This document shows positions 9,948-31,727 of a stretch of DNA of 64,000 nt, piece by piece (the stretch's first letter is position 1; each line of letters opens with the position of its first letter). Source of the stretch: Xanthocytophaga agilis (lineage in GTDB: Bacteria; Bacteroidota; Bacteroidia; Cytophagales; 172606-1); contig NZ_JASJOU010000007.1 of NCBI RefSeq assembly GCF_030068605.1, positions 62,001 through 126,000 of the forward strand. Reading direction: 5' to 3'. A program made the translations under genes and the position numbers. The notes beneath the pieces are model-generated. The model did not search any database. It saw only the letters and a program-made list of their open reading frames with translations, and was not told the DNA's origin.

Positions 9948-9990
9948 ACAATTGATTAGTATTTTCAGTAATGAGAAGCAGGAGGGTATA

Positions 9991-10929: not shown

Positions 10930-11050
10930 GACATACTTTAATTTATTACGAATTATAGTTTAATGGCGGAGTCAAAGGCAACAAATAGTATTTAGTATCT
11001 GGCAGATTGGCAAGCAATTATGACTTTACATCTAAGAGATTGTCTAAAGA

Positions 11051-11740: not shown

Positions 11741-11896
11741 ACTGTAAATGGTTTGAGAATTATAAAGTAGAAAGTATACTCACAAGCAGACTGATTGACA
11801 GACGATTGTTCGCTTCTGCTCTAACTTGTTAGTGTGCCATTACAGGTATTCGTAACCATTAAATTTCCAATTATCATCCTTTTTATCCAGGAATAA

Positions 11897-12430: not shown

Positions 12431-12450
12431 AGTATATAAAGACAAGGTTT

Positions 12451-13602: not shown

Positions 13603-13680
13603 GCGTATCTCTTTTATAAATAGATAGTCTGCTAGCTTTGTCTATTGTCTTGTAAAATTGTGTATAGTGAACTTCTGTCA

Positions 13681-14616
13681 TTACAAATACGTAGTATATC
13701 CCAGACGTCCGTTATAAATTTCCTCATCTACTACAAATATCTCATTATCAACTAACAGCTTTACTTCTATCCGATAGTCGGTTTCCATTGGAAACAAATA
13801 CTGGCTTAGATACCGAATCAACTGTTCTCCAACCCCTCCTGGCAAATAAGCTTGAATGCAGTGGGCATCTGTTGGTAGCACCTGAATCAATACAGAAGAA
13901 TGTACCTCTACATATTCGTCACCCATAACCCAATCTACCCCCAACCGTATCTCTCCCAGTCCGATGCCTGGTTGTTCAGCACGATAGCGGAGCGGAGGCT
14001 TGTGAATAATATTGACAGTATCTTCCAGTAAGGTTTCAAAACTTAATCGTATTTGTTCCCAGTCACCTGCTATCCGATGCACCATTGGCAGTAGATATAA
14101 CAGATTATGTATCTGAGAAGGAGTTAGAAATGCCGGAAAATTCCAGAACTCTGAAAACAAATCTCCTTCAAAGAATCCTTCTCCCTCAAATAAATATTTA
14201 CGTTCTTCCAGAATAAGCTTTACCCGTAATCTATAGTACTCCTGTTCCAGAGGCAGAAAAAAGCGTCTAGCAGCATTTTCCCGTTCCTGTTGTTGTTTTA
14301 TCTCCTTGAGAACTTCTTTTTTGGTTGCAGGAGGTTTATTCTGACTCGGCTGATGAAAAATGCCTTCCGGTAAAGAATCATATAATCCATCTCTGTTTAT
14401 TTCCAGACAAAGTTTTTTCTTTCCTGACCTTGCCATTTCTTCTACCCTGGCTTTTCCAATATCATTCTGAAAGTTTCGCTTGAACAATCCGATTGGAAGA
14501 ATTAGCAACTCTTCCATTGACAAACCGTTCTCCAATAGATTGGCAAGCAGTACTTCTGCACGAATGTCGACAGGCAATCGGTTAATCTGCTCAATATATG
14601 TGTCAAATGCAGACAT
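13681..14616 (-). CDS. tssG: TssG, T6SS baseplate wedge subunit
   Basis: Baseplate wedge component that pairs with TssF. The 311-residue protein starts MSAFDTYIEQINRLPVDIRAEVLLANLLENG, a typical TssG N-terminal helix region, then has a proline-rich linker (QPSQNKPPATKK) and a C-terminal beta-rich part with LGEIRLGVDWVMGDEYVEVHSS, which matches the conserved late-TssG region. Only 6 bases separate it from tssF, consistent with tight coupling of two proteins that act as a complex. Confidence 0.83.
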   Translation of the reverse strand: MSAFDTYIEQINRLPVDIRAEVLLANLLENGLSMEELLILPIGLFKRNFQNDIGKARVEEMARSGKKKLCLEINRDGLYDSLPEGIFHQPSQNKPPATKKEVLKEIKQQQERENAARRFFLPLEQEYYRLRVKLILEERKYLFEGEGFFEGDLFSEFWNFPAFLTPSQIHNLLYLLPMVHRIAGDWEQIRLSFETLLEDTVNIIHKPPLRYRAEQPGIGLGEIRLGVDWVMGDEYVEVHSSVLIQVLPTDAHCIQAYLPGGVGEQLIRYLSQYLFPMETDYRIEVKLLVDNEIFVVDEEIYNGRLGYTTYL

Positions 14617-14622
14617 CGTCAG

Positions 14623-16464: not shown

Positions 16465-16521
16465 AGAATGTAATGTTTGGAATAGTACTGTGATACGGTG
16501 TGCATCGAAAGATTACTTACA

Positions 16522-16950
16522 TCAAAAAGATAAGGGAGAGATATAGAATGCCTTATAAAACTCAAACTTTTCGTTTGTCTGATTCAACACGCCATCAATC
16601 CAGATTCCTAATCGACGCTTAATCCTGCGTTTGTGCTCACCCAATGTAAACTCATGATCTTCCATTTCTGCACGTACCCGTACATTTGCAAGTCGCTTTT
16701 CATATTCCGCAATGGTCGTTGTGACAGATTTTACAATTTCATCTTTCCAGCGATTGCTTGATTGCAGGCTAAAATCTTCTTCCCAAATACTACAGCCATA
16801 CTCTCCATCAAAACGTGACTCCCGAAAATGTGTAGTAAGGAGCAGAAACAGATTCTGAGCAACTGACTCCCGCAAACCACATTGTGTATGCATTTTCTTC
16901 TGCAAAATCTCGTCGAGTCGCAGAGGTAATGTGTAATAGCTCTTAGGCAT
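16522..16950 (-). CDS. tssE: TssE, gp25-like T6SS baseplate subunit
   Basis: TssE is the lysozyme-like gp25 homologue that starts sheath assembly on the baseplate. The stretch CGLRESVAQNLFLLLTTHFRESRFDGEYGCSIWEEDF is the GPW/gp25 signature, including the EYGC-W segment. I chose the ATG at 16950 (142 residues) because it follows a good ribosome site (GAAAGGA, 9 bases before) and starts right where homology begins; a longer frame opens at 17013 but overlaps the preceding gene. It lies 28 bases after the beta-barrel gene and 57 bases before tssF. Confidence 0.85.
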   Translation of the reverse strand: MPKSYYTLPLRLDEILQKKMHTQCGLRESVAQNLFLLLTTHFRESRFDGEYGCSIWEEDFSLQSSNRWKDEIVKSVTTTIAEYEKRLANVRVRAEMEDHEFTLGEHKRRIKRRLGIWIDGVLNQTNEKFEFYKAFYISPLSF

Positions 16951-16978
16951 AGCAAACCGTCCTTTCAAGTAGTAAGCC

Positions 16979-17926
16979 TCAAAACCGGAAAGCGATGCCA
17001 GCGCCCAGTCCAACAGAAGACACAGGTATTTTCAGATTCAGATTATCTGTCCGACGCTGAGATTCATCTATCTCTATAGGTTGATCAATCTGACTGGTAT
17101 TAGCATCAACATATGTATATTGTGCTTTGGTCACTTCTGAGCTATTAGACTTAAGCTGTACACTGGAAATAACTAGTTCTACAAAACCCCGTAACTGATC
17201 TACAATACGAAACTGGATACCCAAGGCAGCCTGATAGCCAAATCCTACCTTTTTCTCCAATTCATTGGTCATCTCAATTTCGTATCGTGCAGAAGGATTG
17301 TCAGGATAGGTAAAGTTAGAGGTATTTACATAGGATAGTTTAGTAGGAATTCCTATACAAACTCCTAATCGGTTATAGATATAATATTCAGGCTTGGATA
17401 CTGCCTTAAAGGTGATATTAGGAATGATATTTACAATTGTGTAGTCATAGTTCTTTTGCACTCTGGCAATATAACTGGTAGTTGGTTCAGACGAATTGAT
17501 TCGGTACTCAGAAGTTGTCGTATAACTTTCTGTAGCAGTACCTCCCAGAATATATTCTCCATCTATACCTATATTAATAAAGTCATTGACAACCAACCCT
17601 ACTCCACCTCCTACCCGCAAGCCAGCCCCAAATGACTTATCTACTTTGTAATCAGAACTTTTGGTTGTATAGGTGGTTGTACCATTGCCTGAGCTATAGG
17701 AATACGTACTGGATGGATCTACTCCCTGTCCGCTAAAGCCACCAGGTGTAAGCAAGCCATAAAATCCATAGGCCTTTACATAAAACTTATTTTCAGCAGC
17801 AGACTTTTTATTGGCTGACTCGGATGAAAATGGAGCAACTTCCGGAGAAGCAGCCATCTGAGCCATTATCCGGACACTCAATAAGGCCATAAAAACAGTC
17901 AGCAATAATGGTTTCGATGTATTCAT
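16979..17926 (-). CDS. Outer-membrane beta-barrel-like protein inside the T6SS operon
   Basis: A 315-residue exported protein with a signal peptide (cleavage near MAQ at residue 23) and alternating-residue strands ending in an aromatic last residue (GLGAGIAFRF), the usual mark of a small outer-membrane beta barrel. Ser/Thr/Tyr-rich loops (SSTYSYSSGNGTTTYTTK) are seen near residue 75. It is placed between tssN and tssE, so it is transcribed with the secretion genes. It is not a core Tss protein that I recognise. It might form the outer-membrane exit or anchor of the apparatus, but it may also be an unrelated passenger. Confidence 0.75.
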   Translation of the reverse strand: MNTSKPLLLTVFMALLSVRIMAQMAASPEVAPFSSESANKKSAAENKFYVKAYGFYGLLTPGGFSGQGVDPSSTYSYSSGNGTTTYTTKSSDYKVDKSFGAGLRVGGGVGLVVNDFINIGIDGEYILGGTATESYTTTSEYRINSSEPTTSYIARVQKNYDYTIVNIIPNITFKAVSKPEYYIYNRLGVCIGIPTKLSYVNTSNFTYPDNPSARYEIEMTNELEKKVGFGYQAALGIQFRIVDQLRGFVELVISSVQLKSNSSEVTKAQYTYVDANTSQIDQPIEIDESQRRTDNLNLKIPVSSVGLGAGIAFRF

Positions 17927-17983
17927 AATTGAAATAGTAGTAAGAATAGCTTTGGTTATAGGTTGTAGATGACCTTATAGTCT

Positions 17984-18742
17984 TCAAATCGTGTTTCGTT
18001 CTGCTTTGATGATGAAGTTATCCTGTATATTATTCTGCTGGAATGTCAGATCCGGATCGAAGTAACGCCTAGGAAAGAATCGCCCTCTGACTGCATAGAA
18101 ATGCCATCCATAAGGGTGGTTCTGTGAATCTGTAAACTGAATTCCATTGACACCATTTTGTTCATTGTAGTCATTCAGAAATATCAGAAACAGCTCTCCC
18201 AATGGCATCTGTAATGGAGCCTTCGCCTTAAAATTAGTTGTAGCAGCATCTGTAGCCCGTTTGGGAAATTCAAACTGTACAACCAGAATTTTAGACAAGT
18301 CAATCAAATCAAGATCAGGCATAGCCCCACCTAATGGATAGTACCATTTTTTGTATTCAGCATCCGGAATAGCCCGATAGGATCTATAAGTCCAGGCAAA
18401 CAGATAGGGTATAACAAATGGAATTACACAGGTAGCAAATCCGGCATTGCCAGCTTTAAAAACCAGAAGATATAAAAGCCATATGCTTATTCCTCCCAGA
18501 ATCTGTACAATGAGTGTTAAACCCAGACCATAAAGATCCTGATTCGTCTCTGGTGCAGTAAAAAACCGATACAACAGAAATAAGTGTGCAATACCTAACC
18601 CAAACCCAAGCAATTGAGCCAATAAATACCAACCCTGCATTGCCAAAGGGGATAAAAGTCCAAGCAATCCAGTCAGAATCAGTAGCAGGACCATGCCTGC
18701 CATATACAAAATACCTTTTGTTGGCTTAACAGAAGTTTTCAC
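17984..18742 (-). CDS. tssN: TssN-like T6SSiii transmembrane protein
   Basis: TssN is a multi-pass inner-membrane protein restricted to the Bacteroidota T6SS. This 252-residue product has about four transmembrane helices in its first half (near residues 11-33, 35-62, 73-97, 99-118), then a soluble C-terminal domain with ADAATTNFKAKAPLQMPLGELFLIFLNDYNEQ and a conserved GWHFYAVRGRFFPRRYFDP segment. Topology, size and position with tssD and tssE support the call. TssN and TssO are presumed to replace the TssJLM membrane complex of proteobacterial systems. Confidence 0.75.
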   Translation of the reverse strand: MKTSVKPTKGILYMAGMVLLLILTGLLGLLSPLAMQGWYLLAQLLGFGLGIAHLFLLYRFFTAPETNQDLYGLGLTLIVQILGGISIWLLYLLVFKAGNAGFATCVIPFVIPYLFAWTYRSYRAIPDAEYKKWYYPLGGAMPDLDLIDLSKILVVQFEFPKRATDAATTNFKAKAPLQMPLGELFLIFLNDYNEQNGVNGIQFTDSQNHPYGWHFYAVRGRFFPRRYFDPDLTFQQNNIQDNFIIKAERNTI

Positions 18743-18794
18743 CTGTCAATAGGGTTTAGATTAGGAATCAAATAATAGAGTATCAGACCTATGA

Positions 18795-19181
18795 TCAGGC
18801 ATGATTTTCATGGGCCACGCCACTTACTTCTATTTTGCGGGCGGAAATATTCAGACTGACAGTCATGGCACTGGCAGAGGTAGAATTGAAAGACTCGGAA
18901 TAGCCTACACAGTAAGCGTCTTCAAACTTGACTTCTTTTAAAGTAGAGTCTTCGTCTATTTTTTTGAAAACGATACTGCCATTGGTCTTTTTATAGGGAT
19001 CAATCATCCAGCCCAAAAGAGCGGTATCGTCACTGGTAACAATCTGAATAAACAGATTACCTCCTTTTACATTGGATGCCGGACGGCCTTTGTCGTCAGT
19101 AGCCTGACCAAATGAGAAGTTACAGCTTAACACATCGTATTCTCCGCCTTCTACTTGTAATGTTGCATTAAATGATGACAT
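18795..19181 (-). CDS. tssD: TssD (Hcp) tube protein, paralogue 3
   Basis: Hcp-type protein that stacks as hexameric rings to form the inner tube. The 128-residue product has the Bacteroidota TssD form: MSSFNATLQVEGGEYDVLSC, DDKGRPASNVKGG, LLGWMIDPYKKTNGSIVF, FEDAYCVGYSESF, and the ending ISARKIEVSGVAHENHA. It is the most standard of the three tssD genes in this operon, so I take it as the main tube subunit. It lies 52 bases before tssN and 56 bases after the 181-residue unknown gene. Confidence 0.93.
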   Translation of the reverse strand: MSSFNATLQVEGGEYDVLSCNFSFGQATDDKGRPASNVKGGNLFIQIVTSDDTALLGWMIDPYKKTNGSIVFKKIDEDSTLKEVKFEDAYCVGYSESFNSTSASAMTVSLNISARKIEVSGVAHENHA

Positions 19182-19237
19182 AGTGGTAAAGTGATTAGTA
19201 AGTGGAACTGAATAATAAATAAGTCTGCTTCTTTTAG

Positions 19238-19783
19238 TTATTGAGTCAATGCTTTTAACTGAAGTCTATACTCGAGGGTATATACCGCTGATAATTCCAA
19301 ACCTGTCCCAGCTCCTGGCACATCAAACATAAAAGCCAATGGACCAGAGCCTGAGTAGTTAAGTCCATTAATCACAGCATTGGCAACATTGGTAACGCCA
19401 TTGTACTGATTCATATTCATTGCCCCTTTCGCCATAGCCTCAAATGCCTTGTATTCATTTTCAGATAAAGGAATTTTTCCGAATCTGTCTTCAAAAGCTA
19501 TATTAAGTCCGGGACCACCGATATCAAGCCCATGTAGATCCACATAAAACTGCGTGTTCAGAACAAGGATAATGGATACGCCTACAGATGCTCCCAATCC
19601 AAGGCCTAACCGTACGCCAGGTGTTGCATAACAATACCACGGCGAACCTGAATTACCGGACTTGAGATCATCTAGTCGTATAATAGACCCATCCAGCGAT
19701 TCAAGGCCTACTACAGCCAACATACCGCCATATTTTAGGACGGAGCCTACCCAGATTTTATAATCAGGAATACTTAAAGCCAT
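19238..19783 (-). CDS. Unknown 181-residue glycine-rich protein between vgrG and tssD
   Basis: I do not recognise a family. It has no signal peptide. The first third has a hydrophobic glycine-rich core (GVRLGLGLGASVGVSIILVL, residues about 52-71) and the middle has NMNQYNGVTNVANAVINGLNYSG. The C-terminus has an alternating hydrophobic pattern (LELSAVYTLEYRLQLKA), suggesting beta strands. It lies 25 bases after vgrG and before a tssD gene, the usual place for a T6SS cargo effector or spike adaptor. The hydrophobic core would also fit a membrane-active protein; this is inference only. Confidence 0.75.
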   Translation of the reverse strand: MALSIPDYKIWVGSVLKYGGMLAVVGLESLDGSIIRLDDLKSGNSGSPWYCYATPGVRLGLGLGASVGVSIILVLNTQFYVDLHGLDIGGPGLNIAFEDRFGKIPLSENEYKAFEAMAKGAMNMNQYNGVTNVANAVINGLNYSGSGPLAFMFDVPGAGTGLELSAVYTLEYRLQLKALTQ

Positions 19784-19808
19784 TGTCAGAGCTGTTTTGT
19801 GTTACGAT

Positions 19809-21638
19809 TTAATTTAGTTTGATAAGTGCGGCTTCTACTTTTACCAAGGCTCCGCCTGATATATCTGTTGTAGCGGAAGAAGATAATTTTAGTTGTGCAC
19901 TGGCACTAACCTCTGCTGTGGTATCTGCCTGTGCTTTTATCTCCATTCCTTTCAACTTTAAAGCTGCTGTTGCTTCCTGCTCTATATTTTGTTTGGCACT
20001 GAGTTTGAAATTCATAGCCTCCAGATTGATTTTCTCATCTGCCTGCATGCTTATATTCTTTGCTTTCAGAGAGATATCTTTCGCTGCTTCCAATACAATA
20101 TCTCCCTGTGTTTGCAACTGAATTTTCCCATCATCTTCAAAGGAGATAATCAATGCTGCTTTATCCTGTTTATCTATATTTGAGATGGTGATTCGCTGTA
20201 TATTAGCATTGGGATCATCTTCGAAATTCAGCATGTTACCTCCTCTGAATAGAATCTGCTTAATCGTATTATCCTTGGTAGTATATTTTTCTCCACTCTT
20301 TTGAGGATACAAGCTGGTAATTACATACGGCATATTAGGGCTGTTGCCCTGATACCCAATTACCACCTGTGCATCTATTTCTGGAATAAAAAGCATCCCT
20401 TTTCCTTCTCCTGTATAGGGATGCCCTACACGTACCCAGGCAGTTTCCTGTTCGGACGACGCCCATAGGAATTGTACTTTTATCCGTCCCATTTCTTCCG
20501 GATCATCATTATCAATTACTTTTGCCAAGTCAGAATGAGCTACAGGGTGTATGATAGTGTGATTGGATGGAGGATACTCAGCCGATTCCGGAATAGCTTT
20601 AAACTGATTCACATAGTTTCCATTGCCATCTACTTCATGGATAATCTCTGTTACTCTGTATTTACCAAAACTCTCTGTAGCCTGTCCATCTTTTTGTGGA
20701 CGCACACTACTCACATCCAGTACAGCTCCTACTGAAAAGTCCGGATATTCACCTGTACCACGAAAATCCACCAGATAATTTGCCTCTACCGCTTTCCGTA
20801 TTTTTACAGTCTGGTCAACAGCCTGCTGGTTATCAAAAGGATGGTACAAAGTCTGCTCACTACTCTGCTCGAATAACCGTGTAGATTCATCCAAGGCAAA
20901 GCTGCTGAACTTGCCCAAACCATCTATCGACTGGTCTGCTGACTTACTCAGATATTGCTCATCTTGCATATAGTCATAGACAGCCATACTAAACTTGGAT
21001 GGCCGCAGCGAAATCGACATATGACAAGTCTGTACCCCATTCACTTCAAATGCAATGGTATCTGAAGATGAATGGTCTCCTATCAGTAGCTCCTTTCCAT
21101 TGTAATACATCCACTCACCCTGCTCGGCTGCCAGGCGACTCAGAAAAGCGTAATTGGTCTCTTTGTACTGAACTGCATATGACAGTTTCTCATTATGCTG
21201 GGTAGCAATCCGACGTTTGATCAGGTTCCGGGGATATTTGCCCAGAATAGACTCTGCAATCTGCCCAAAGGTCTGATCATGAAAGGTTCGTTGCGTCTGG
21301 CAATCTTCCAGCAGAATTGTTGGACTATAGCCTTTCAGCAAAAACACATTGACCAGATCACTTGTATTTTTCAAAGCAATCTCTGTGACGATACCTTTGA
21401 ACGCAAAAGAGAACGATCCCTTTTCCAGTACGGGTTCAAAAGAAAAGGCAATTGCCTTACCACACACATCCTGATGCGCCTGATGAAAGAACATCTCCTT
21501 AGGATCTTCTAATTCTTCAAAAGGCACTTCCAATTCAAATGAATGATGGGTAAACAAACTCTGTTCAATGCGCAACCGGGTATAGTGCGTTATCTTTTTT
21601 CCAGTCTCCAGTTCGATAGTTGCTTTTACCTGTTGCAT
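19809..21638 (-). CDS. vgrG: TssI (VgrG) spike protein
   Basis: Trimeric spike at the tip of the T6SS tube, related to phage gp27/gp5. The 609-residue protein has an N-terminal gp27-like region (QVKATIELETGKKITHYTRLRIEQSLFTH...), a gp5-like OB-fold around residues 370-440 with DDPEEMGRIKVQFLWASSEQETAWVRVG and GKGMLFIPEIDAQVVIGYQGNSP, and a C-terminal needle made of short Ala/Lys/Glu repeats (for example ISLKAKNISMQADEKINLEA). There is no extra C-terminal effector domain, so cargo must be carried by separate proteins or the PAAR protein. Confidence 0.93.
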   Translation of the reverse strand: MQQVKATIELETGKKITHYTRLRIEQSLFTHHSFELEVPFEELEDPKEMFFHQAHQDVCGKAIAFSFEPVLEKGSFSFAFKGIVTEIALKNTSDLVNVFLLKGYSPTILLEDCQTQRTFHDQTFGQIAESILGKYPRNLIKRRIATQHNEKLSYAVQYKETNYAFLSRLAAEQGEWMYYNGKELLIGDHSSSDTIAFEVNGVQTCHMSISLRPSKFSMAVYDYMQDEQYLSKSADQSIDGLGKFSSFALDESTRLFEQSSEQTLYHPFDNQQAVDQTVKIRKAVEANYLVDFRGTGEYPDFSVGAVLDVSSVRPQKDGQATESFGKYRVTEIIHEVDGNGNYVNQFKAIPESAEYPPSNHTIIHPVAHSDLAKVIDNDDPEEMGRIKVQFLWASSEQETAWVRVGHPYTGEGKGMLFIPEIDAQVVIGYQGNSPNMPYVITSLYPQKSGEKYTTKDNTIKQILFRGGNMLNFEDDPNANIQRITISNIDKQDKAALIISFEDDGKIQLQTQGDIVLEAAKDISLKAKNISMQADEKINLEAMNFKLSAKQNIEQEATAALKLKGMEIKAQADTTAEVSASAQLKLSSSATTDISGGALVKVEAALIKLN

Positions 21639-21652
21639 TGTTTGTTTAAAGA

Positions 21653-22159
21653 TTAGTTTGTGTGCTCCACACCATCTATTTTTATCTTCTCAGCAGAAAT
21701 ACGTAACAGCATACAGTAACTTCTGCCGGTTCTTTGCTGACAGCCTAGTAAGTCCCGAAATGAATTTTTCAGACTCTCTCCATCTTTTGTTTCATCAGGC
21801 CCAATGTCTGTGTTGATTAATTCTGTCTCAAGCAGTAATGAAGAGGAACTCTCATTATCCAGGGTAAAGCTTTCAATTAACGTCATCAGATATGCTCCTT
21901 CAAAAGCCACTTCCTTAAAAACTGTATCTACCTGATCTGTTCGGTAAAATAGTATTTGTCCGTCCTGTTTTTTGGTTGGATCAGCCATCCATGATCCCAA
22001 AGCTCCATCAGCCGTTCCATCCAGCATAATTCGTATCCGACCAGAATGCACTCCTGATGAAGGTCGTCCCCGCTGATCATATTTCTGACTAAGTGGCACA
22101 TGACATTGAATCACCTCATAAGTATTGCCAGCTACTTTAAATTCACCTTTAAAAGACAT
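21653..22159 (-). CDS. tssD: TssD (Hcp) paralogue 2, with an internal insertion
   Basis: The N-terminal part (SFKGEFKVAGNTYEVIQCHVPL, QRGRPSSGVHSGRI, GSWMADPTKKQDGQILFYR, FEGAYLMTLIESFTL) and the ending (LLRISAEKIKIDGVEHTN) match TssD. Between them, about residues 110-150, is an extra stretch (NTDIGPDETKDGESLKN...CQQRTGRSYC) not present in the 128-residue copy, which makes this protein 168 residues. The insertion lies before the last strand. It could be a ring-decorating loop, a cargo-binding element, or a specialised cap ring. Spacing to vgrG is 14 bases. Confidence 0.85.
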   Translation of the reverse strand: MSFKGEFKVAGNTYEVIQCHVPLSQKYDQRGRPSSGVHSGRIRIMLDGTADGALGSWMADPTKKQDGQILFYRTDQVDTVFKEVAFEGAYLMTLIESFTLDNESSSSLLLETELINTDIGPDETKDGESLKNSFRDLLGCQQRTGRSYCMLLRISAEKIKIDGVEHTN

Positions 22160-22192
22160 AAAAACAGGAAATAGATTGTTGTCAATACCTAC

Positions 22193-22564
22193 TTAGACTA
22201 TCAGAGTCGCTTCACCTATAGAGATCTGTTCTCCAACAATCTGAAGAGAACACTTCATAAAGGAGACGTCTGTATAGAAGTTGTCAATCATGTTTACACA
22301 GTATGCTTTCTGAAAAGAAATCACCTTGAGTTTAGCATCTTCATCCGTTTTATATATTTCTATTTCTCCATCTTTCTGCAAATGAGGATTTACCATCCAC
22401 TCGGTTATTTTGGTATCATCCATTGAGTCCATCACAACAAATATGATCCAGAGTGGTTTGGATGCAGGCTGCCCCTTGACATTGGCTTTACGATGGACGG
22501 TCACATGGCATGCTGTGAGTTCATACTGTTCTCCATCGAAAAGAAGATAGGCTTTGAATGACAT
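22193..22564 (-). CDS. tssD: TssD (Hcp) paralogue 1, divergent
   Basis: A divergent tube-protein paralogue. I chose the ATG at 22564 (123 residues, MSFKAYLLFDGEQYELTACHV) because the preceding 20 codons of the longer frame have no similarity to the other copies. It keeps VKGQPASKP, ITEWMVNPHLQKDGEIEIYK and FQKAYCVNMIDNF, and ends with VGEQISIGEATLIV. It differs strongly from the other two copies, so it may be a special ring (for example at the spike or baseplate end) rather than bulk tube. It lies between tssC and the second tssD. Confidence 0.8.
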   Translation of the reverse strand: MSFKAYLLFDGEQYELTACHVTVHRKANVKGQPASKPLWIIFVVMDSMDDTKITEWMVNPHLQKDGEIEIYKTDEDAKLKVISFQKAYCVNMIDNFYTDVSFMKCSLQIVGEQISIGEATLIV

Positions 22565-22677
22565 AAAGATTGAAATCTGATTTATGTAAACTATCGGCAA
22601 TATGTTTTCAGATGGGAACCACAAGGCCGTTTGGATCTGGCATTCCCATTTTACTATCTGTCTATAAAATATCCTGA

Positions 22678-24048
22678 TTATTGTTGCTGATAGTCAGCCT
22701 TCCAGTCAGCAGAATCCGGATCATCTCCTTTTTGACCATCCAGTTTGATTACAAACGTCTTGGCAGGAAAATAAGGAACCATATGAATGTCCAGATAAAT
22801 ACGGTCTTTCTTCTGAGGGTCCTGTTCAAACCGAAGCACCTTAAATTTTTCGATCAGTTTACCAGGCCCTGTTACACTATCCAAGAAGCGGGTAATCTGC
22901 TTCTGAATATCCATCCGGGTATTGACATTGAAGTTTTCAAAAGCTCTGCGATTCAGAAAATCAATCAGTACTTTGGTGATGTAATCAAATACTCGCACTA
23001 CCGAGTAAGTCTGCAAACCAATATTATCCCCACTGAAAAGAGTCTTGGCAGCAAATGGCATTACCTTTCCGTATTCCGCCACCATGGGAATTAGTCCTAA
23101 CTTTTCAATTTCACTGATTTCACTTTTCTTCAATTGGAATCGTACTCCATCTACTTCAAACAATGACCCATGCTTGCGCCCAGCAGTCACCTGTGACATC
23201 AGTGTGCTGTATATCCGACCTGCCAGTGCTGTTGATGGAGGCACATATAAGTCCTCTTCTTCTTGTACTTCCTGGTATCTTCCTCTTCCCACCAACCAGT
23301 TACAGGTCATAACCACATTCGACAGATACGCATCTCCTCCTGTAAGCTGAGCTGAGTCAAACAGATCTATCACATCTTCCGGAGCATCGAGGTGCTCAAA
23401 GTCTGTCACCAGCATAACTTTATTCTTATTGGCAATACGAGCCCATTTATCTACTACTTTTTTAGATCCCAGATATCCTGGTAATACCAGCAGTGAATAG
23501 TTATCCCGCAGGTCCAGCCGATCATAGTTTTTCTCAATCTCCTCTGTAATCGCATCAATGAAGGTAGTGTTTTCCAGATTGGTGACTTGCTCCATGTCAG
23601 CGTTCATGATCGACACATTCTTTAACTTGTCCTGATCCGCATTCTTAAAGAAATTAGCCACCGAACGATAAGACCGTTCCAAGTCTCGAACGGATGCAAA
23701 CGCATTACTTAGATTTTGGGTGAGTAACTGAGTAGCGGTTTCAGATTTTTCGGTTGCTTTTTCGATAAGTTCGGGCACAGTCTCAGCACTGCTAATCAGA
23801 TCAGAAAGCAGCCTCAGTCTTTTCTTTAATGCTTCTCTTTCTGCCTTTTTAGACTCATCCGTTAAAAAGATGCGTTTACGGGCTTTCTTCTCAGGATTCA
23901 GGTTTTGTAATCCATCAATAGTAGTTTCCAGAATACCAAAGCCACCGTATTTAGCTAATTTCTGTCCTGCCTGTTCCAGTGAAATAGCAGGCAACTGTTC
24001 CTTTACAGCCAATTGTCCTGCCTGAAGATTTTCTTTTGCCTCAGCCAT
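22678..24048 (-). CDS. tssC: TssC, large T6SS sheath subunit
   Basis: Large subunit of the contractile sheath. The 456-residue protein has the TssC pattern: a helical N-terminal region, the core with DRLDLRDNYSLLVLPGYLGSKKVVDKWARIANKNKVMLVTDF (about residues 190-235), RYQEVQEEEDLYVPPSTALAGRIYS, GKVMPFAAKTLFSGDNIGLQTYSVVRVFDYI and the C-terminal segment NFNVNTRMDIQKQITRFLDSVTGPGKLIEKF. It lies 67 bases after tssB, as in nearly all T6SS loci. Confidence 0.92.
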   Translation of the reverse strand: MAEAKENLQAGQLAVKEQLPAISLEQAGQKLAKYGGFGILETTIDGLQNLNPEKKARKRIFLTDESKKAEREALKKRLRLLSDLISSAETVPELIEKATEKSETATQLLTQNLSNAFASVRDLERSYRSVANFFKNADQDKLKNVSIMNADMEQVTNLENTTFIDAITEEIEKNYDRLDLRDNYSLLVLPGYLGSKKVVDKWARIANKNKVMLVTDFEHLDAPEDVIDLFDSAQLTGGDAYLSNVVMTCNWLVGRGRYQEVQEEEDLYVPPSTALAGRIYSTLMSQVTAGRKHGSLFEVDGVRFQLKKSEISEIEKLGLIPMVAEYGKVMPFAAKTLFSGDNIGLQTYSVVRVFDYITKVLIDFLNRRAFENFNVNTRMDIQKQITRFLDSVTGPGKLIEKFKVLRFEQDPQKKDRIYLDIHMVPYFPAKTFVIKLDGQKGDDPDSADWKADYQQQ

Positions 24049-24115
24049 AGTGATTTGTAGTTAATGAGAGTTAGATTGCTGACTGGTAAATCATTTTAAG
24101 TGAGAAAGTAAGGGG

Positions 24116-24562
24116 CTATTCTCCTTCTTCCAGTTCTTTGATGGCTTGCTGAAGAGCAGCAAGGTAAGCTGCCTTTGCTTCTGGATTTTCCAGCAAAGTC
24201 TTCAGAATTTTATTGGATTTGAGCTGTCGAACATATTTCTGGAAATCTTCAAACTGTAGATTCAGATTTTGCAGAAATTCACTCTGACTGAGTAGACCTT
24301 GTTTGCCAAAGTCAGCTACACTTCGGAATCGGAGTGTCTCCGTAAATGTACTTCCTTGTTCATCTGTAAATTCAACTTCTTTCTCAGGTTGAAAATGCTC
24401 AAATACATCTGTAACATTTTTCAGATCATATACAATCTCCGGTTGGATCGGAGGCTCATCGGTAAGTTTCTCAACAAGCAGTGTCCGGTTTTGCGGAATA
24501 TCGGTAATACCTTCACTTACATTAATTTTGCGTTCCTGTCCGCCAATGCCATAGTCAAACAT
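24116..24562 (-). CDS. tssB: TssB, small T6SS sheath subunit
   Basis: Small sheath subunit that intertwines with TssC. The 148-residue protein starts MFDYGIGGQERKINVSEGITDIPQNRTLLVEKL and includes the typical PEIVYDLKNVTDVFEHFQPEKEVEF and FRSVADFGKQGLLSQSEFLQNLNLQ segments. It is slightly shorter than proteobacterial TssB (about 165) but has the expected start and end. It sits between the PAAR gene and tssC. Confidence 0.9.
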   Translation of the reverse strand: MFDYGIGGQERKINVSEGITDIPQNRTLLVEKLTDEPPIQPEIVYDLKNVTDVFEHFQPEKEVEFTDEQGSTFTETLRFRSVADFGKQGLLSQSEFLQNLNLQFEDFQKYVRQLKSNKILKTLLENPEAKAAYLAALQQAIKELEEGE

Positions 24563-24598
24563 GATTGTAAGGGTTAGAGAGTAAAAGAATATATTGTT

Positions 24599-24892
24599 TT
24601 ATCCACCTATCAGAACTGTAGGGCAGCCCAGCACAATCAGGCCGCCATGTGCGGTCATGTCACCCATCCGGGCTGCGGGCTTTCCACCTATCAAAACTGT
24701 AGCAGATCCAAGTATAATACTATCGGGAGGGCCCACACAAGTACACATATCTCCCATTACAGCAGCGGGCATACTACCAATTAAAACAGTAGGCATTCCC
24801 GGACCCATTACAGGTCCTCCTACGTGTGGCACCAGCACCGTTATCATCGGGCAGGTATGCATATCACCAATGCGAGCGGCAGGCTTCGACAT
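24599..24892 (-). CDS. PAAR-repeat spike tip protein
   Basis: Sharpens the VgrG trimer at the tip of the T6SS. The 97-residue product is made of short glycine-rich repeats with PAARIGDMHTC, MPAAVMGDMCTC and KPAARMGDMTAHGG, and with TVLIGG/S closing each repeat. His and Cys residues near the turns fit the zinc site of the PAAR cone. There is no extension that could be an effector domain. It is the first gene of the T6SS operon; the long regulatory intergenic region lies upstream. Confidence 0.93.
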   Translation of the reverse strand: MSKPAARIGDMHTCPMITVLVPHVGGPVMGPGMPTVLIGSMPAAVMGDMCTCVGPPDSIILGSATVLIGGKPAARMGDMTAHGGLIVLGCPTVLIGG

Positions 24893-24940
24893 AATTATAA
24901 TTAGCTGGTTGTAAACAATTTCTGGTTTATATACTTTAGT

Positions 24941-24983
24941 AAGTGTGTATTTTGGCTATGTAACTAACCCTTTATACACACTT
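24941..24983. promoter_or_regulatory. Inverted repeat in the T6SS control region
   Basis: AAGTGTGTAT (24941-24950) and ATACACACTT (24974-24983) are perfect 10-bp reverse complements with a 23-base spacer. The right arm overlaps the first copy of the ACCCTTTATACACA repeat. It starts 49 bases upstream of the PAAR start codon, a natural operator position. Confidence 0.45.
24966..24980. repeat. Motif AACCCTTTATACACA, copy 1
   Basis: Exact 15-base match to copy 2 at 25410-25424, and near match to copy 3. It lies on the T6SS side of the intergenic region. Confidence 0.6.
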
Positions 24984-25095
24984 TATTTTCAGGATTCTTT
25001 TTTTCTTTTTCTTGTGACATATCCTGAAAAAATATACCCTCATCCTATCATTCTGGAAGTATCATTCTCTATTCCTGTCCTGTAAGGTCCTTCTC

Positions 25096-25249
25096 CCTTC
25101 GATGTCCTTCAGAAAGGATTCTCTCCCTCCCGGTCCTCCTGAAAGGATCTCGTGACAAGACCGGCGGCCTTTACTTTTGGAATTATTTTCTCTCAGAAAG
25201 TAAACACAACTCTATTTGTCACAGGATTCTTTCAGAAGGACAACGAAGG
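25096..25249. repeat. Imperfect 27-bp inverted repeat flanking about 100 bp
   Basis: The arm at 25096-25122 matches the reverse complement of 25223-25249 at 23 of 27 positions. The core reads TGTCCTTCAGAAAGGAT. Further similar pieces (GTCCTCCTGAAAGGATC near 25133-25149 and GATCCTTTCAGGG near 25281-25293) lie within the region. Between the arms, TTTACTTT (25170-25177) pairs with AAAGTAAA (25197-25204). This looks like a small dispersed palindromic intergenic element, not a gene. Confidence 0.55.
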
Positions 25250-25409
25250 AATGAACTTTCTAAGAAGATAGAGAGTGAGTGATCCTTTCAGGGAACAGGA
25301 AGATATTTTTCTTTATTTCCGGACCTCTAGAAAACTCCTCTAATCTGATCGCTGATTTTTCATCCTTTTTGTATGTACTAAGTACGGGATTGCAGAGAAG
25401 GTCTTCAAT

Positions 25410-25424
25410 AACCCTTTATACACA
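25410..25424. repeat. Motif AACCCTTTATACACA, copy 2
   Basis: Identical over 15 bases to copy 1, in the same orientation, 444 bases away and 166 bases before the sensor kinase start. Confidence 0.6.
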
Positions 25425-25482
25425 TAATTTGACCTGCTTAATGGGGAAAAGAGGAATTATAAGAGGATAAGTAAACATATAT

Positions 25483-25497
25483 ACCCTTTTATACACA
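25483..25497. repeat. Motif ACCCTTTTATACACA, copy 3
   Basis: Same motif with one additional T, 93 bases before the sensor kinase start. Copies 2 and 3 are about 73 bases apart (near seven helical turns), which suits binding by the same protein on one DNA face. Confidence 0.55.
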
Positions 25498-25589
25498 AGT
25501 CAGATAGGCGGAACATATAAAATCAGGCATTTATTTACTATTTTCGTATAAGCAGTTGTACCACTCAGATACAACTTACAAACTCCTTA

Positions 25590-28500
25590 ATGACAAATAC
25601 ATTTTATTATAAAGGCTGGCTATTATTTGTATTCCTCAGTTCGTTGGTTCATGCGCAGCTACCATCTGTCTCATTTGAAACTATTACTATTCAGGACGGA
25701 CTGCCCAGTAATACAACCTATTTTGCCACCCAAGACAAACAGGGATTTATGTGGTTTGGTACCCGCACATGCCCTACCCGATACGATGGATCTACTTTCC
25801 GGTCTTTCCTCACACCGGAAACCAATCTTGTCACAGGCATAGCAGCTGACTCTCAGAATACGATCTGGATTTCCAGTGACCGAAATGGAATCTGCCAGAT
25901 CAAATCCAACTCTATGAACATGCAATCCTTGTATAAGCCAGGTCATACACCTTCAGGGCCACAATCAGGATCTTTCTTTATTGATTCATATGGTAAAGGA
26001 TGGTATAGTGATATGCAAGGGATAAATCAGATGGATTTGACTACTCATAAAACCAAGTATTATCCTTTGCGCCAGACAAATTATGTATGGATAAAAGCAT
26101 CGTTTCTTGAAGACAGCCAGCATACACTATGGGCAATCTGTACAGATAACGGTTTATTCAGATATGATCGTAACAAAGATACATTTGTCTGCGTCCTGGG
26201 TGCGGATAGCAAAGTACCTGGAAGAAGTGATCCGATTGTTTTTACCAAAGGATGTGTGGATTCTAAAGGTATGCTGTGGTTAGGGTCAGAGAATCGCGGT
26301 CTCATTCAGTATAATCCTCACACAAATACCTATCAGACATTTCAGGATATGAACAGACCTTTGGCCATTACCTGTGTCCGAGAAGGGTTTGATGAGAATA
26401 ATCAAAGAATTTTGTGGGTTGGTACCCATGAAAGACTATGGGTATATCGCCCTGAACAACAAAAATTCTATGACTTTACTAATCTGTTTCCAGATGCCTA
26501 TAATGTCTATTATATTTTTCGGGAAAAAACCAATGGCATTGTATGGGTCTGCACATCAGAAGGCATTTTGAAATACCATCCACAAAGTAACCTTATTCAT
26601 AAAGTTCAGCTACCTGTCAATCTCCTTCAATTTTCAGTAACAGTTAATGTCATTACACCAGACCAACGTGACTCTACTGGTCAAAGCTTCTGGTTGGGGC
26701 TATCTCGTCAGGGCTTACTGCATTGGAACCGAAAAAGTGGACAGTTTAAACACATACACTTCCCACAGAATCTGCATCAGGCGGAGATTACCTGGATTGA
26801 CCAGCGACCAGATGGTATACTTTGGATTGGAGTGAACCGATGGGATTATAAACGGGGAGGACTATTTGTATATGATCCTGGCTCAGATAGATTTCTGGAT
26901 ACACCGCTAGCACGTTCAACCATTCCGTTTTATTCTGTGTCCTTCTTTATGTATGGATTCTTTGACAAATCGCAACGTCTCTGGATCGGCAACTCAGATG
27001 AAGGTATTCATGTATTAGATACAAAGACAACCAGGGATGTAACTCCCTGGAGCAAAGTAGCCCAGCAACAGTTTCAACACAATAGTAATCTGATTAATGA
27101 TCTATATCAGGATAGGCAAGGACGTGTGTGGCTTGCAACCTATCAGGGACTATACCTTGCAGATGAAAAACAAAAACGATTTGTAAGTTTGGATTCTATC
27201 GCGATCAAAAATAATCCCGGTTTTGATCAGACTGTTAATTCCATCTATGAGGATCATCAGGGACATATATGGGCTGCCCGCTGGGGTAGTATTACAGAAA
27301 CTGATTCCAAAGGCAACCTACTTACCCTACTTACCAGCAAAGATGGACTATATGACAGAGAGAACAACGGAATTGCAGAAGACACTTTAGGCAATATCTG
27401 GATTGGTAACTTTGAAGGATTACATTGTTATAATCCTTTCACTAAACGAATTATCCGCTTCACTATCAATGACGGGCTCTCACAAAACAATACACTGCGA
27501 CGTGTCTTTACCACACCCAATAAAAAGGAACTCCTGATTGGACAAAAAAATGGATTTGACATTGTAAATGTCTCCAATCTGATGAAAAAGCCTGTATTAC
27601 CTACATTGGCAATCAGCAGTTTTCAGGTACATGATAAGGTTTTACAGACAGATTTCACTCAGCCTATCAAACTCGAAAGACATGACAATGCCTTTACTGT
27701 CAACTTTGTTGCCTTAAATTACACCAAGCTACAAAACAACCAGTATGCTTATTTACTGGAAGGCTTTGAAGAAAAATGGCATCAAAGTGGTTCGGCACAT
27801 GTGGCTTATTATACGAATCTAGATCCTGGTTCCTATACACTGCGCCTGAAAGCAGGTGATGCCTTTGGGAACTGGAACCCTCATATTACCAGCATACATA
27901 TCACGATTTTACCCGCTTTTTACGAAACCTGGTGGTTCCGTATTATGATGGCAGTAGCTATCCTCACACTTCTATATGCACTTTATCATTACAGGGTACA
28001 ACAGATTTTGCAATTGCAACATGTCAGAAACAGGATTTCTGCCGATCTGCATGATGAAATTGGCTCGTCATTAAGTGGTATTAGCATTATGGGAATGATG
28101 GTAAAACAGAACCTTCAAAACCCTGCTGTGTCTTCTCCGTTTCTGGACAAAATGATGGAAGAGGTACATCGTATCAGCAGTTCCATGGATGATATTGTCT
28201 GGAGCATAAATCCTCACAATGATGAACTGTCCATACTTGTATCACGAATGGTCCGATATGCGTCAGAATTACTGGAAGCGCGGAATATAAACTATCATAT
28301 TCAGGTTCCTGATTCAATCGAAAACCTGAAACTTGAAATGGAGAAACGACGGGACTTTTATCTCATATTCAAAGAAGCGATAAATAACCTGGTTAAGTAT
28401 GCCCATTGCAGTCATGCCCGAATAACCATTACAGTCAACCATCATCAGCTACAAATGCTTATAGAAGATAATGGGATAGGATTTGACCCTGCTAGCCATC

Positions 28501-28622
28501 AGGACCGGAATGGTTTACGAAATCTGCAAAAACGAGCTGAGAATCTAAAAGGAGCTCTATCTATCCGTTCAGCCTTAGGTCAGGGTACAACTATTCGACT
28601 ACAATTTCCTGTTATACATTGA
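25590..28622 (+). CDS. Propeller-type sensor histidine kinase (Reg_prop/Y_Y_Y/HisKA_3)
   Basis: A 1010-residue membrane sensor. A signal peptide (residues about 1-22) precedes a long periplasmic region of two-component regulator propeller repeats (about 25-690; motifs such as GLPSNTTYFATQDKQGFMWFGT and LYQDRQGRVWLAT), then a Y_Y_Y domain (about 695-770), one transmembrane helix (about 785-805), and a NarL-type kinase core with phosphoacceptor His821 in DLHDEIGSSLS and an ATPase domain with EAINNLVKYAHCSH and EDNGIGFD. It is divergent from the T6SS operon and followed by its likely partner response regulator. No receiver domain is fused. Confidence 0.9.
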   Translation: MTNTFYYKGWLLFVFLSSLVHAQLPSVSFETITIQDGLPSNTTYFATQDKQGFMWFGTRTCPTRYDGSTFRSFLTPETNLVTGIAADSQNTIWISSDRNGICQIKSNSMNMQSLYKPGHTPSGPQSGSFFIDSYGKGWYSDMQGINQMDLTTHKTKYYPLRQTNYVWIKASFLEDSQHTLWAICTDNGLFRYDRNKDTFVCVLGADSKVPGRSDPIVFTKGCVDSKGMLWLGSENRGLIQYNPHTNTYQTFQDMNRPLAITCVREGFDENNQRILWVGTHERLWVYRPEQQKFYDFTNLFPDAYNVYYIFREKTNGIVWVCTSEGILKYHPQSNLIHKVQLPVNLLQFSVTVNVITPDQRDSTGQSFWLGLSRQGLLHWNRKSGQFKHIHFPQNLHQAEITWIDQRPDGILWIGVNRWDYKRGGLFVYDPGSDRFLDTPLARSTIPFYSVSFFMYGFFDKSQRLWIGNSDEGIHVLDTKTTRDVTPWSKVAQQQFQHNSNLINDLYQDRQGRVWLATYQGLYLADEKQKRFVSLDSIAIKNNPGFDQTVNSIYEDHQGHIWAARWGSITETDSKGNLLTLLTSKDGLYDRENNGIAEDTLGNIWIGNFEGLHCYNPFTKRIIRFTINDGLSQNNTLRRVFTTPNKKELLIGQKNGFDIVNVSNLMKKPVLPTLAISSFQVHDKVLQTDFTQPIKLERHDNAFTVNFVALNYTKLQNNQYAYLLEGFEEKWHQSGSAHVAYYTNLDPGSYTLRLKAGDAFGNWNPHITSIHITILPAFYETWWFRIMMAVAILTLLYALYHYRVQQILQLQHVRNRISADLHDEIGSSLSGISIMGMMVKQNLQNPAVSSPFLDKMMEEVHRISSSMDDIVWSINPHNDELSILVSRMVRYASELLEARNINYHIQVPDSIENLKLEMEKRRDFYLIFKEAINNLVKYAHCSHARITITVNHHQLQMLIEDNGIGFDPASHQDRNGLRNLQKRAENLKGALSIRSALGQGTTIRLQFPVIH

Positions 28623-28803
28623 CCAAAAAGGGTTATTGACATCCTGCATATACTCTGCTTTCTTTGTTAAGAGTTCATTTGTATCTGCGTAGTATTTTAC
28701 AAATACACGTTCACTTATTGTATCCTTCAAAGACAGACATATAGTCACAGTTGTCTTTCATACATATTGGTTAACTAGTTATATCTTTATTCTTATTCTT
28801 CTT
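28623..28803. other. Gap between kinase and regulator
   Basis: 181 bases, AT-rich, with no gene and no clear terminator, so the regulator could be cotranscribed or have its own promoter. Confidence 0.4.
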
Positions 28804-29445
28804 ATGTATCCGATTCATGTAGCCATTTATGAAGATAACGACAAGTTAAGGTCTTTGCTGGAAATGCTGATAGGCAATACAGAGGGGCTGATACTCAAAG
28901 GATCTTATGCAAATTGCAGCAATATTTACTGGGATATACGCCACTACAAACCACATGTAATTGTCATGGATATAGACATGCCGGAAGTAAATGGCATAGA
29001 AGGAATCCGGATAGTGAAGGAGTATGATGTAAGCATTCGGGTATTGATGCATACAGTATTTGATGATGATGAAAAATTATTTACCTGTCTGAGCAATGGA
29101 GCAGATGGATACTTACTCAAAAAAGATACATCCATGCACCTGATTCAATCTATTATGGATGTATATGAAGGAGGAGGACCTATGTCGCCTGGTGTTGCGA
29201 GAAAGGTATTGCAAACCTTTCATCAGCCTTTACGTACATCTAGTGAATACAATGTCACCCCACGAGAACGTCAGGTGTTGGAATTACTAGCTAAAGGATA
29301 TACCTATCGTATGATTGGAATTGAGTTTTCAATCTCTATTGAAACCGTTCGCCGTCATTTGAAGAACATCTATCAAAAACTACATGTTCAGTGTGGACCA
29401 GAGGCAGTTGCCAAAGCGATTCGGGAGAAGATTATTCAGGCTTAA
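28804..29445 (+). CDS. LuxR/NarL-family response regulator
   Basis: 213 residues: an N-terminal receiver domain with acidic pocket residues (YEDND), the phosphorylation site Asp56 in VIVMDIDMPE, and conserved Lys near 105 in YLLKKD; then a C-terminal LuxR helix-turn-helix (about 150-213) with TPRERQVLELLAKGYTYRMIGIEFSISIETVRRHLKNIYQKL. It lies directly after the propeller kinase of matching type, so the two form a likely signalling pair. The T6SS operon and its repeated upstream motif are plausible targets, by position only. Confidence 0.92.
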   Translation: MYPIHVAIYEDNDKLRSLLEMLIGNTEGLILKGSYANCSNIYWDIRHYKPHVIVMDIDMPEVNGIEGIRIVKEYDVSIRVLMHTVFDDDEKLFTCLSNGADGYLLKKDTSMHLIQSIMDVYEGGGPMSPGVARKVLQTFHQPLRTSSEYNVTPRERQVLELLAKGYTYRMIGIEFSISIETVRRHLKNIYQKLHVQCGPEAVAKAIREKIIQA

Positions 29446-29480: not shown

Positions 29481-30137
29481 TTACAACTCACTCACCCATA
29501 CATTCTCTGTAAACTTATGAGATACTGTAGTGGATTTTCCGTTGATATTCAGTACCATTGATTGATCGAATTCAATCTTTTCCACTAACGTAACTTTACT
29601 CGACAAATCCATTCCTATTTTGGTCAGGTATTGCAGAAAAGCATCTGAGGTATCTTCCATACCTACAATTTTGTATTGTAAACCTTCCTCTATGTGAGTC
29701 AGCTTTATTTTCTTTACCTTGGTAATCTTACCATGTTGGTCTGGAATGGGATCTCCATGCGGATCAAATTGGGGAAAGCCTAAAAACTCATCAAGCCGGA
29801 TAATCAGTTGCTCAGATTCAATATGCTCCAGTTCTTCTGCCAGTTCATGGACTTCATCCCAGGCAAAACTTAGTTTTTCAACCAGAAATACTTCCCATAA
29901 ACGATGTCGGCGAATCACCCGTAATGCCAGTCTTTCGCCTTCTTCTGTTAAACTAACACCTTGGTATTTTTTATAATCAACTAACTGGCGGTCCGACATT
30001 TTTTTGAGCATGTCAGATACCGATGACGGTTTAGTTTGGGTTAATTGAGCAATAGCGTTGGTGGTAGCGCCATTATCACCGGAAGCACAAAGCTTATAGA
30101 TGATTTTTAGATAGTTTTCTTCTGTAAATGAAACCAT
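29481..30137 (-). CDS. DtxR/MntR-family metal-dependent repressor
   Basis: 218 residues with the three-domain DtxR plan: N-terminal winged helix (ENYLKIIYKLCASG...TTNAIAQLTQTKPSSVSDMLKKMSDRQLVDYKKYQGVSLTEEGERLA), a metal-binding and dimerisation helix region (HRLWEVFLVEKLSFAWDEVHELAEELEHIESEQLIIRLDEFLGFPQFDPHGDPIP), and a C-terminal FeoA/SH3-like domain. It is divergent from an NRAMP manganese transporter gene, with a DtxR-like palindrome between them, so MntR-type control of manganese uptake is the likely role. Iron sensing cannot be excluded. Confidence 0.9.
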   Translation of the reverse strand: MVSFTEENYLKIIYKLCASGDNGATTNAIAQLTQTKPSSVSDMLKKMSDRQLVDYKKYQGVSLTEEGERLALRVIRRHRLWEVFLVEKLSFAWDEVHELAEELEHIESEQLIIRLDEFLGFPQFDPHGDPIPDQHGKITKVKKIKLTHIEEGLQYKIVGMEDTSDAFLQYLTKIGMDLSSKVTLVEKIEFDQSMVLNINGKSTTVSHKFTENVWVSEL

Positions 30138-30260
30138 TTGCTTCTGTTTTTCTTTGCAGAACTCTGATTAGTAACGGTATATAGGGTTCATTCCGCTTCG
30201 TCAGAACTCTGACAAAATTCTTGATAGCAAAGGTAGTCGAAATATATTTTATAATTAAAA

Positions 30261-30276
30261 TTTAGACAAACCTAAA
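30261..30276. promoter_or_regulatory. Putative MntR/DtxR operator
   Basis: TTTAGACAAACCTAAA has symmetric half-sites TTTAG and CTAAA, resembling the TTTAGGnnnnCCTAAA boxes of DtxR-family repressors. It lies 114-129 bases before the chosen transporter start and 124 bases before the repressor start. Confidence 0.5.
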
Positions 30277-30389
30277 AAATTGTTTTGATAAATGCATTTT
30301 CTATTATAGATTTACTTAAAATTAGAAGCGCAATAAAACCATACATAAAAGTGAATACAAAAGTAAAAGAATTTCTTACCTCGGTATCT

Positions 30390-31727
30390 ATGCCCCAAAC
30401 CATTGCCTCCCAAACTGTTAATACAGTACAGACGTCGCAAGTGGACTCAATGGCATCAGAATGCATCACGATAGACGAAAGTAAAGGGTTCTGGAGTAAG
30501 CTAAAAGCTTTTATTGGTCCGGGATTATTGGTTGCAGTAGGATATATGGACCCGGGCAACTGGGCTACCGATATAGCAGGAGGTTCACAGTTTGGCTATT
30601 CTCTGCTTTCGGTCATAGGCCTTTCCAGTATTTTTGCTATGATTTTGCAATATCTGGCTCTTAAATTAGGTATTGTAACAGGTCATGACTTAGCTCAGGC
30701 CTGCCGGGAATCCTATTCCAAAGGTGTTACGATATTTTTGTGGGTGCTATGTGAGATTGCTATTATTGCGACCGACCTTGCGGAGATCATTGGTGCAGCA
30801 CTGGCAATTAACCTGCTTTTTAATATTCCTCTTAGTATTGGAGTACTGATCACGATAGCGGATGTGATGCTTTTACTATTATTGCAGCACAAAGGTTTTC
30901 AGGCATTGGAACGTACAGTAGGTGGGATCATCTTTATTATCATCCTATGCTTTGGTTACGAGATTTTACTTTCACAGCCAGATATTGCTCAATTAAGTAA
31001 AGGATTTATACCAAGTGCACAGATTGTAACAAATCCTAGTATGCTGTATATCGCAATAGGTATTCTGGGAGCTACAGTAATGCCACACAATTTATATCTA
31101 CACTCCAGTGTAGCCAAAATGCGTAAGTTTTCAGATACAGAAAAAGGAAAAAAGGAAGCCATTCGTTTCGCGAGTATTGACTCAACAGGATCCCTTTTTA
31201 TTGCCTTTCTGATCAATGCATCTATTCTGATTGTAGCGGCAGCAGCATTTCACTTTTCTGGTAATCACACTGTAGCGGATATTGGAGATGCTTATCATTT
31301 GCTTGATCCGTTATTAGGAGCCAAATGGGCAGCTATTGTATTTGGTATTGCGTTGCTAGCAAGTGGATTAAATGCTACACTCACAGGAACATTGGCTGGA
31401 CAGATTGTAATGGAAGGTTTTCTGAACCTGCGTCTGAAGCCATGGCTACGTCGCTTAGTAACCAGAGGGATTGCGATTATTCCTGCCTTGTGGGTAGCAT
31501 TCCTTTATGGAGAAAGAGGCACTGCACAACTATTGGTTTTCAGTCAGGTGGTATTGTCACTTCAGTTGAGCTTTGCAGTGGTTCCGTTGGTTATATTTAC
31601 CAGTAGCAAAGCAAAGATGGGAAAATTTGTTAATAGCCCGCTATTAACCACTATCACATGGATTGTAGCCTCTATCATTATCGTATTAAACCTATACCTG
31701 TTGTTTCAGGTATTGTTTGAAATATAA
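30390..31727 (+). CDS. mntH: NRAMP-family Mn2+/Fe2+ transporter
   Basis: Inner-membrane proton-coupled divalent metal importer. The helix 1 metal-binding motif DPGN appears in GYMDPGNWATDIAGGSQFGY, and the helix 6 motif in GATVMPHNLYLHSS (MPHN), both characteristic of the family. About eleven transmembrane helices fill the rest. I chose the ATG at 30390, giving 445 residues; a TTG start at 30285 in the same frame is open but would add an unusual N-terminal tail and place the start next to the operator. It is divergent from a DtxR/MntR-type repressor, consistent with manganese uptake. Confidence 0.93.
   Translation: MPQTIASQTVNTVQTSQVDSMASECITIDESKGFWSKLKAFIGPGLLVAVGYMDPGNWATDIAGGSQFGYSLLSVIGLSSIFAMILQYLALKLGIVTGHDLAQACRESYSKGVTIFLWVLCEIAIIATDLAEIIGAALAINLLFNIPLSIGVLITIADVMLLLLLQHKGFQALERTVGGIIFIIILCFGYEILLSQPDIAQLSKGFIPSAQIVTNPSMLYIAIGILGATVMPHNLYLHSSVAKMRKFSDTEKGKKEAIRFASIDSTGSLFIAFLINASILIVAAAAFHFSGNHTVADIGDAYHLLDPLLGAKWAAIVFGIALLASGLNATLTGTLAGQIVMEGFLNLRLKPWLRRLVTRGIAIIPALWVAFLYGERGTAQLLVFSQVVLSLQLSFAVVPLVIFTSSKAKMGKFVNSPLLTTITWIVASIIIVLNLYLLFQVLFEI

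Follow-up and report, generated by a model that had tools for sequence, protein, structure and literature searches.

The intergenic region between a T6SSiii cluster and a beta-propeller sensor kinase gene of Xanthocytophaga agilis contains three copies of a directional box that is probably the operator/promoter of the LuxR-type response regulator encoded at 28804-29445, located immediately 5' of a core promoter, and that would wire this regulator both to the T6SS and, through autoregulation, to its own gene. Because the box travels with the kinase/regulator pair across three families and heads T6SS clusters, the propeller sensor very probably controls the T6SS. All coordinates refer to the window, i.e., the entire 64-kb stretch of DNA analyzed here.

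The T6SSiii cluster (7446-24892, minus strand) encodes PAAR, a 148-aa protein at the TssB position, TssC, three Hcp/TssD proteins, VgrG, TssN, gp25/TssE, TssF, TssG, TssK, a ClpV-type ATPase and several unnamed ORFs, and its first gene is that of the PAAR protein (24599-24892, minus strand). Pfam matches were obtained for TssC, TssD (three proteins), the VgrG domains, gp25, TssG, TssN and the ClpB/ClpV-type ATPase, with a weak match for TssF and one just under the cut-off for TssK. The content of the cluster matches that of the T6SSiii of Bacteroidota, including the presence of TssN and, in the ORFs scanned, the absence of TssJLM (PMC10781749). The T6SS machine is ordinary; what is new is the promoter element. 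On the plus strand, as the earlier note had described, a 1010-aa sensor kinase (25590-28622; Reg_prop propeller repeats, Y_Y_Y, HisKA_3 and HATPase domains) is followed by its partner, a 213-aa response regulator (28804-29445, plus strand) that consists of a receiver and a LuxR/GerE helix-turn-helix and is the proposed binder of the box. Together these proteins have the make-up of a propeller-type two-component system. Assignment to the Bacteroides-type HTCS, in which a receiver and an AraC-type DNA-binding domain are fused to the kinase, was rejected because the kinase ends at the HATPase domain and the receiver and the GerE/LuxR helix-turn-helix reside in a separate protein. On its far side, the regulator gene is adjoined by an ordinary metal homeostasis pair (29481-31727), namely a gene for a DtxR-type iron-dependent repressor with a FeoA domain and, in divergent orientation, one for an Nramp-type metal transporter.

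Copies 1 (24965-24980) and 2 (25409-25424) are the same 16-mer, TAACCCTTTATACACA (sense TGTGTATAAAGGGTTA), whereas copy 3 (25482-25497) is degenerate, with one extra base (T); all three lie on the minus strand, and the opposite-strand reading of the box is TGKGTRTAAAGGGTTA. The earlier note had placed two exact 15-base copies and one T-inserted copy here, and all are present, the exact ones sharing 16 bases rather than 15. An exact direct repeat of 16 nt did not arise in any of 3000 simulations of the 697-bp region with the same composition. The exact 14-mer occurs three times in the 9.77-Mb genome, twice in the intergenic region of the window, so that a dispersed element, the outcome that the note had named as fatal to its proposal, is rejected. 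With one mismatch, the genomic frequency of the 14-mer does not exceed that of a reversed control, and looser matches elsewhere are accordingly mostly due to chance. When a matrix built from 17 foreign (non-window) sites only was run on the 64-kb window, the three copies ranked first to third, with scores of 22.8, 22.8 and 12.5 against maxima of 11.0-14.1 in six simulated windows.

Kinase orthologues were delineated by identity and by the gap to paralogues (the next kinase match in the same genome scores 197 bits, compared to >1000 bits for the orthologues). Close orthologues were detected in seven of the 291 sampled genomes of the order Cytophagales and in six of the 222 genomes of a second family, taken as Spirosomataceae. 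Eight genomes, which belong to three Cytophagales families and have kinase orthologues of 46-58% identity, show the same box anatomy. The kinase is located near a T6SS cluster also in genomes G034, G212, G450 and G418, where one box stands at the head of the T6SS genes and a second one in the gap separating the kinase from a GH5 cellulase gene. Altogether, 6/6 kinase-linked loci have the box at their T6SSiii cluster head; T6SS loci devoid of this kinase, as well as loci with more distant kinases, show no box above background. In the second family, all six kinase-positive genomes carry the box, compared to 17 of the 216 others, a test in which phylogeny is not modeled. The search of relatives proposed in the earlier note thus finds the motif near the kinase in three families and at T6SSiii cluster heads, and the lack of conservation of the intergenic region, which would have spoken against the proposal, did not materialize.

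Other kinase loci have other targets. The kinase-side box precedes genes for PKD-domain proteins in G451 and G456, with a second box upstream of a gene for a 167-aa protein in G451; boxes precede a gene for an S74 protein in G004 and genes for Kelch/TIG and S74 proteins in G074; and in G007, the regulator-promoter core alone was found, close to a contig end. Retention of the kinase without a nearby T6SS in G004, G074, G451 and G456 implies that the T6SS is not its sole or ancestral target. In G034, G212 and G450 (loci L071, L176 and L195), the GH5 cellulase gene is situated between kinase and T6SS head and has a box on either side. As G418 and G451 likewise have a GH5 homologue close to the kinase, this gene recurs in the locus. 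Two further complete box-promoters of G034 (C1:1292309 and C1:2892718; positions 6310 of L263 and 6719 of L264), one of which precedes a gene for a lipocalin-like protein, lie far from both the kinase and the T6SS and have near-identical flanks; possibly, these are duplicated or mobile promoter copies.

Read toward the target gene, the complete element has the form TGKGTRTAAAGGGTTA-T(T/G)G-N20-nAnnTTT(G/A), and the nAnnTTT(G/A) part begins exactly 24 nt downstream of the box in 17 of the 17 non-window sites, which were picked by the 16-mer alone and, being of common ancestry (the two extra G034 copies appear to be recent duplicates), do not represent 17 independent events. Promoters recognized by sigma-A in Bacteroidota consist of -33 and -7 elements (PMC12632263). 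In Flavobacterium psychrophilum, the TAnnTTTG element has been mapped to positions -12 to -5 (PMC9723704), and on this scale the conserved box would span about -51 to -36. At the 17 sites, TTG (about -35 to -33) and nAnnTTT(G/A) (-12 to -5) then resemble a Bacteroidota sigma-A promoter with the correct spacing. There are two differences: the box-linked -7 element starts with G or C in place of T and, unlike in a plain sigma-A promoter, a conserved 16-nt box adjoins the -33 element, as in activator-dependent promoters. In every genome, the box faces the target gene (T6SS cluster heads or genes for GH5 cellulase, lipocalin-like, PKD, Kelch and S74 surface proteins) and never the kinase; this orientation led us to reject the boxes as kinase promoters. 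The distance from box to ATG is mostly 50-140 nt; for the T6SS, it amounts to precisely 66 nt in G001 (the sister species), G034 and G450 and to 72 nt in the window. Longer distances are found for the T6SS of G418 (522) and G212 (167), the GH5 gene of G418 (181) and one further G034 site, x1 (395).

The two exact copies in the window relate differently to this anatomy. Copy 2, which faces the T6SS from a distance of 516 nt, is followed by TTG at 25406-25408 and GTACTTAG at 25378-25385. Copy 1 also faces the T6SS, 72 nt upstream of the PAAR start codon; it is not followed by TTG, and TACTAAAG (24934-24941) stands in place of the nAnnTTTG of other genomes. With the -33 and -7 elements added to the matrix, copy 2 becomes the best site of the window (27.4) and the promoter of the regulator gene the second best (13.0), and the score of copy 1 falls to 6.4 because its TTG and TTTG are absent. 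Copy 1 retains the putative operator and not the usual core promoter. The lack of both elements at copy 1 and the remoteness of copy 2, which is separated from the T6SS by a dispersed repeat, count against the box acting on the T6SS in this genome.

The link to the regulator comes from its own promoter (28620-28666, plus strand), in which the core AAAGGGTTATTG (28627-28638) is followed by TTTG (28663-28666) at the spacing seen in target promoters elsewhere. All 11 close orthologues of the regulator gene have the core upstream, with a variant form in G392, and nearly all of these promoters have TTT(G) at equal spacing (ATTG in G004). The helix-turn-helix of the regulator is nearly invariant among orthologues. 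In G034, where the regulator gene is 1.8 Mb away from the kinase, the element is carried by both the regulator promoter and that of a divergent lipocalin-like gene. The 291 genomes sampled from the order contain 21 matches to the strict core pattern, of which 15 fall in 6/7 kinase-positive genomes and six in 5/284 others (Fisher test, 4e-9, with phylogeny ignored); the box occurs together with regulator orthologues and is at background level in kinase-less T6SS loci. A one-mismatch bipartite pattern was abandoned as too loose, the control being equally frequent, except for matches in regulator promoters. In the genome to which the window belongs, three additional sites, C3:200902 (retained in G001), C18:169247 and C8:67808, are not claimed as regulon members as they have no convincing -7 element. 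The first of these, a near match TGTGTGAAAAAGGTTATTG (L268, 4903-4920) that is also present in the sister species, is located upstream of a 362-aa ORF and is a possible extra member with an imperfect -7 (GTAAATTG).

The rigid 24-nt spacing and the common core (AAAGGGTTATTG...TTTG) would also fit a pattern imposed by a dedicated alternative sigma factor, of which the box and the -7 element would form the extended promoter, merely co-occurring with the kinase and a regulator that acts elsewhere. This is unlikely: the downstream element looks like a primary sigma-A -7 box, no gene for a sigma factor was noted next to the locus, and the pattern tracks the kinase/regulator pair and is retained upstream of the regulator gene after relocation of the latter.

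The sister species G001, in which the locus is 97% identical, separates the boxes from the surrounding sequence. All three copies are identical between G001 and the window, and the segment with copies 2 and 3 (25401-25589) shows a single change in 189 bp compared to 28 in the 308 bp immediately upstream (Fisher test, 1.5e-5). The 10-bp inverted repeat AAGTGTGTAT/ATACACACTT (24941-24983; arms 24941-24950 and 24974-24983) is indeed perfect in the window, and 49 bases separate it from the PAAR start codon (24892), as the earlier note had it; it is not conserved, however, both arms being mutated in G001. The inverted repeat was therefore rejected as the operator and is probably incidental.

Between copies 1 and 2, the sequence is non-coding and contains a copy of a dispersed repeat (25093-25289; best-matching core at about 25133-25243) that is present at the same position in G001. 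This repeat has some 40 further sites in the genome at 77-90% identity, in addition to many unscored candidates (177 at first look), and a consensus derived from 30 copies has a long hairpin fold (-65 kcal/mol), which makes the repeat REP/MITE-like. An Rfam search gave no credible RNA, the one sub-threshold match being that of a miRNA model over the hairpin repeat, and no plasmid similarity was found. The presence of a genuine dispersed repeat in the same region, along with the failure of the one-mismatch motif to exceed its reversed control, might suggest that the box is itself a chance or dispersed sequence without a regulatory role. This explanation is highly improbable, given that the alignment of the dispersed repeat falls between the boxes and not across them, and given the conservation at orthologous loci across families, the fixed -7 spacing, the direction and the genome-level co-occurrence of the box.

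The window copies could also be fading relics of an ancestral layout (T6SS box, GH5 gene, kinase-side box) from which the GH5 gene was lost, the T6SS now being under an unrelated promoter. The lack of -33 and -7 elements at copy 1 and the non-coding, repeat-bearing interval between copies 1 and 2 are compatible with such decay. Several Spirosomataceae have GH5 at this place, but no GH5 remnant was seen between copies 1 and 2, so that a lost GH5 gene in the window is a guess and an ancestral GH5 here an assumption. The identity of the three boxes in G001 despite divergence of the nearby sequence further argues against decay, and we consider this scenario improbable.

Under the preferred explanation, in which the box is the operator of the LuxR-type regulator, the propeller kinase presumably phosphorylates the regulator on detecting an extracytoplasmic ligand. 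The regulator would then bind the box beside the -33 element and, as a class II-like activator, recruit the sigma-A polymerase to the non-consensus -7 element; the activated promoters would be those of the T6SS, of the other targets and of the regulator gene itself, which has the same core. The comparison of sequences shows the box itself, its conservation, direction and spacing and its co-occurrence with this pair; physical binding, activation rather than repression, the nature of the signal and the activity of copy 1 in this genome are what we infer. As to the wiring proposed in the earlier note, the connection of the LuxR-type regulator to the T6SS through the motif finds strong support in comparative genomics (occurrence in three families, co-occurrence, the core at the regulator gene), with the modification that the boxes face T6SS or surface-protein genes and not the kinase. 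The proposed coupling of the kinase to the T6SS agrees with the boxes at T6SS heads and has to be widened, as kinase and box are also kept beside non-T6SS targets.

Hybrid Reg_prop/Y_Y_Y systems control polysaccharide use in Bacteroides. The system described here resembles these in the combination of a propeller and Y_Y_Y sensor with a histidine kinase and in the presence of a GH5 glycanase gene among the Spirosomataceae targets; it differs in that the LuxR-type regulator is unfused and separate and in having the T6SS as a target, and no SusC/SusD-type locus was seen beside the kinase locus. VxrAB and ChvG/ChvI involve regulator families and a T6SS subtype other than those found here, where a Bacteroidota T6SSiii is combined with a beta-propeller kinase and a LuxR-type regulator. 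The respective papers place a proteobacterial T6SS under the two-component control of VxrAB in Vibrio cholerae (PMC4441509) and of ChvG/ChvI in Agrobacterium (PMC3460628); what is shared is a sensor kinase with a response regulator that governs T6SS expression, as predicted here. No transcriptional regulator of T6SSiii is described in the literature that we found, coverage of which is incomplete and does not prove absence, and neither Bacteroidetes nor Flavobacterium is mentioned where T6SS regulation has been reviewed (PMC10482370).

A broader and more tentative proposal, to which we give somewhat less than even weight, is that the directional box of a conserved Cytophagales regulon puts the T6SSiii, together with the GH5 glycanase and the lipocalin-like protein in Spirosomataceae, under a glycan- or envelope-sensing kinase, such that contact-dependent killing would be coupled to the detection of a surface polymer of prey or plant material. 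If true, this regulon would rank among the earliest cases of a Bacteroidota T6SS with a defined transcriptional control. The analysis yields a named kinase, a named regulator, a precise candidate operator and, for several species, the orthologous targets, which makes the trigger of a Bacteroidota weapon directly testable. That a single operator is reused for genes of the T6SS, a glycanase and surface proteins also gives a hint of what kind of signal may be sensed.
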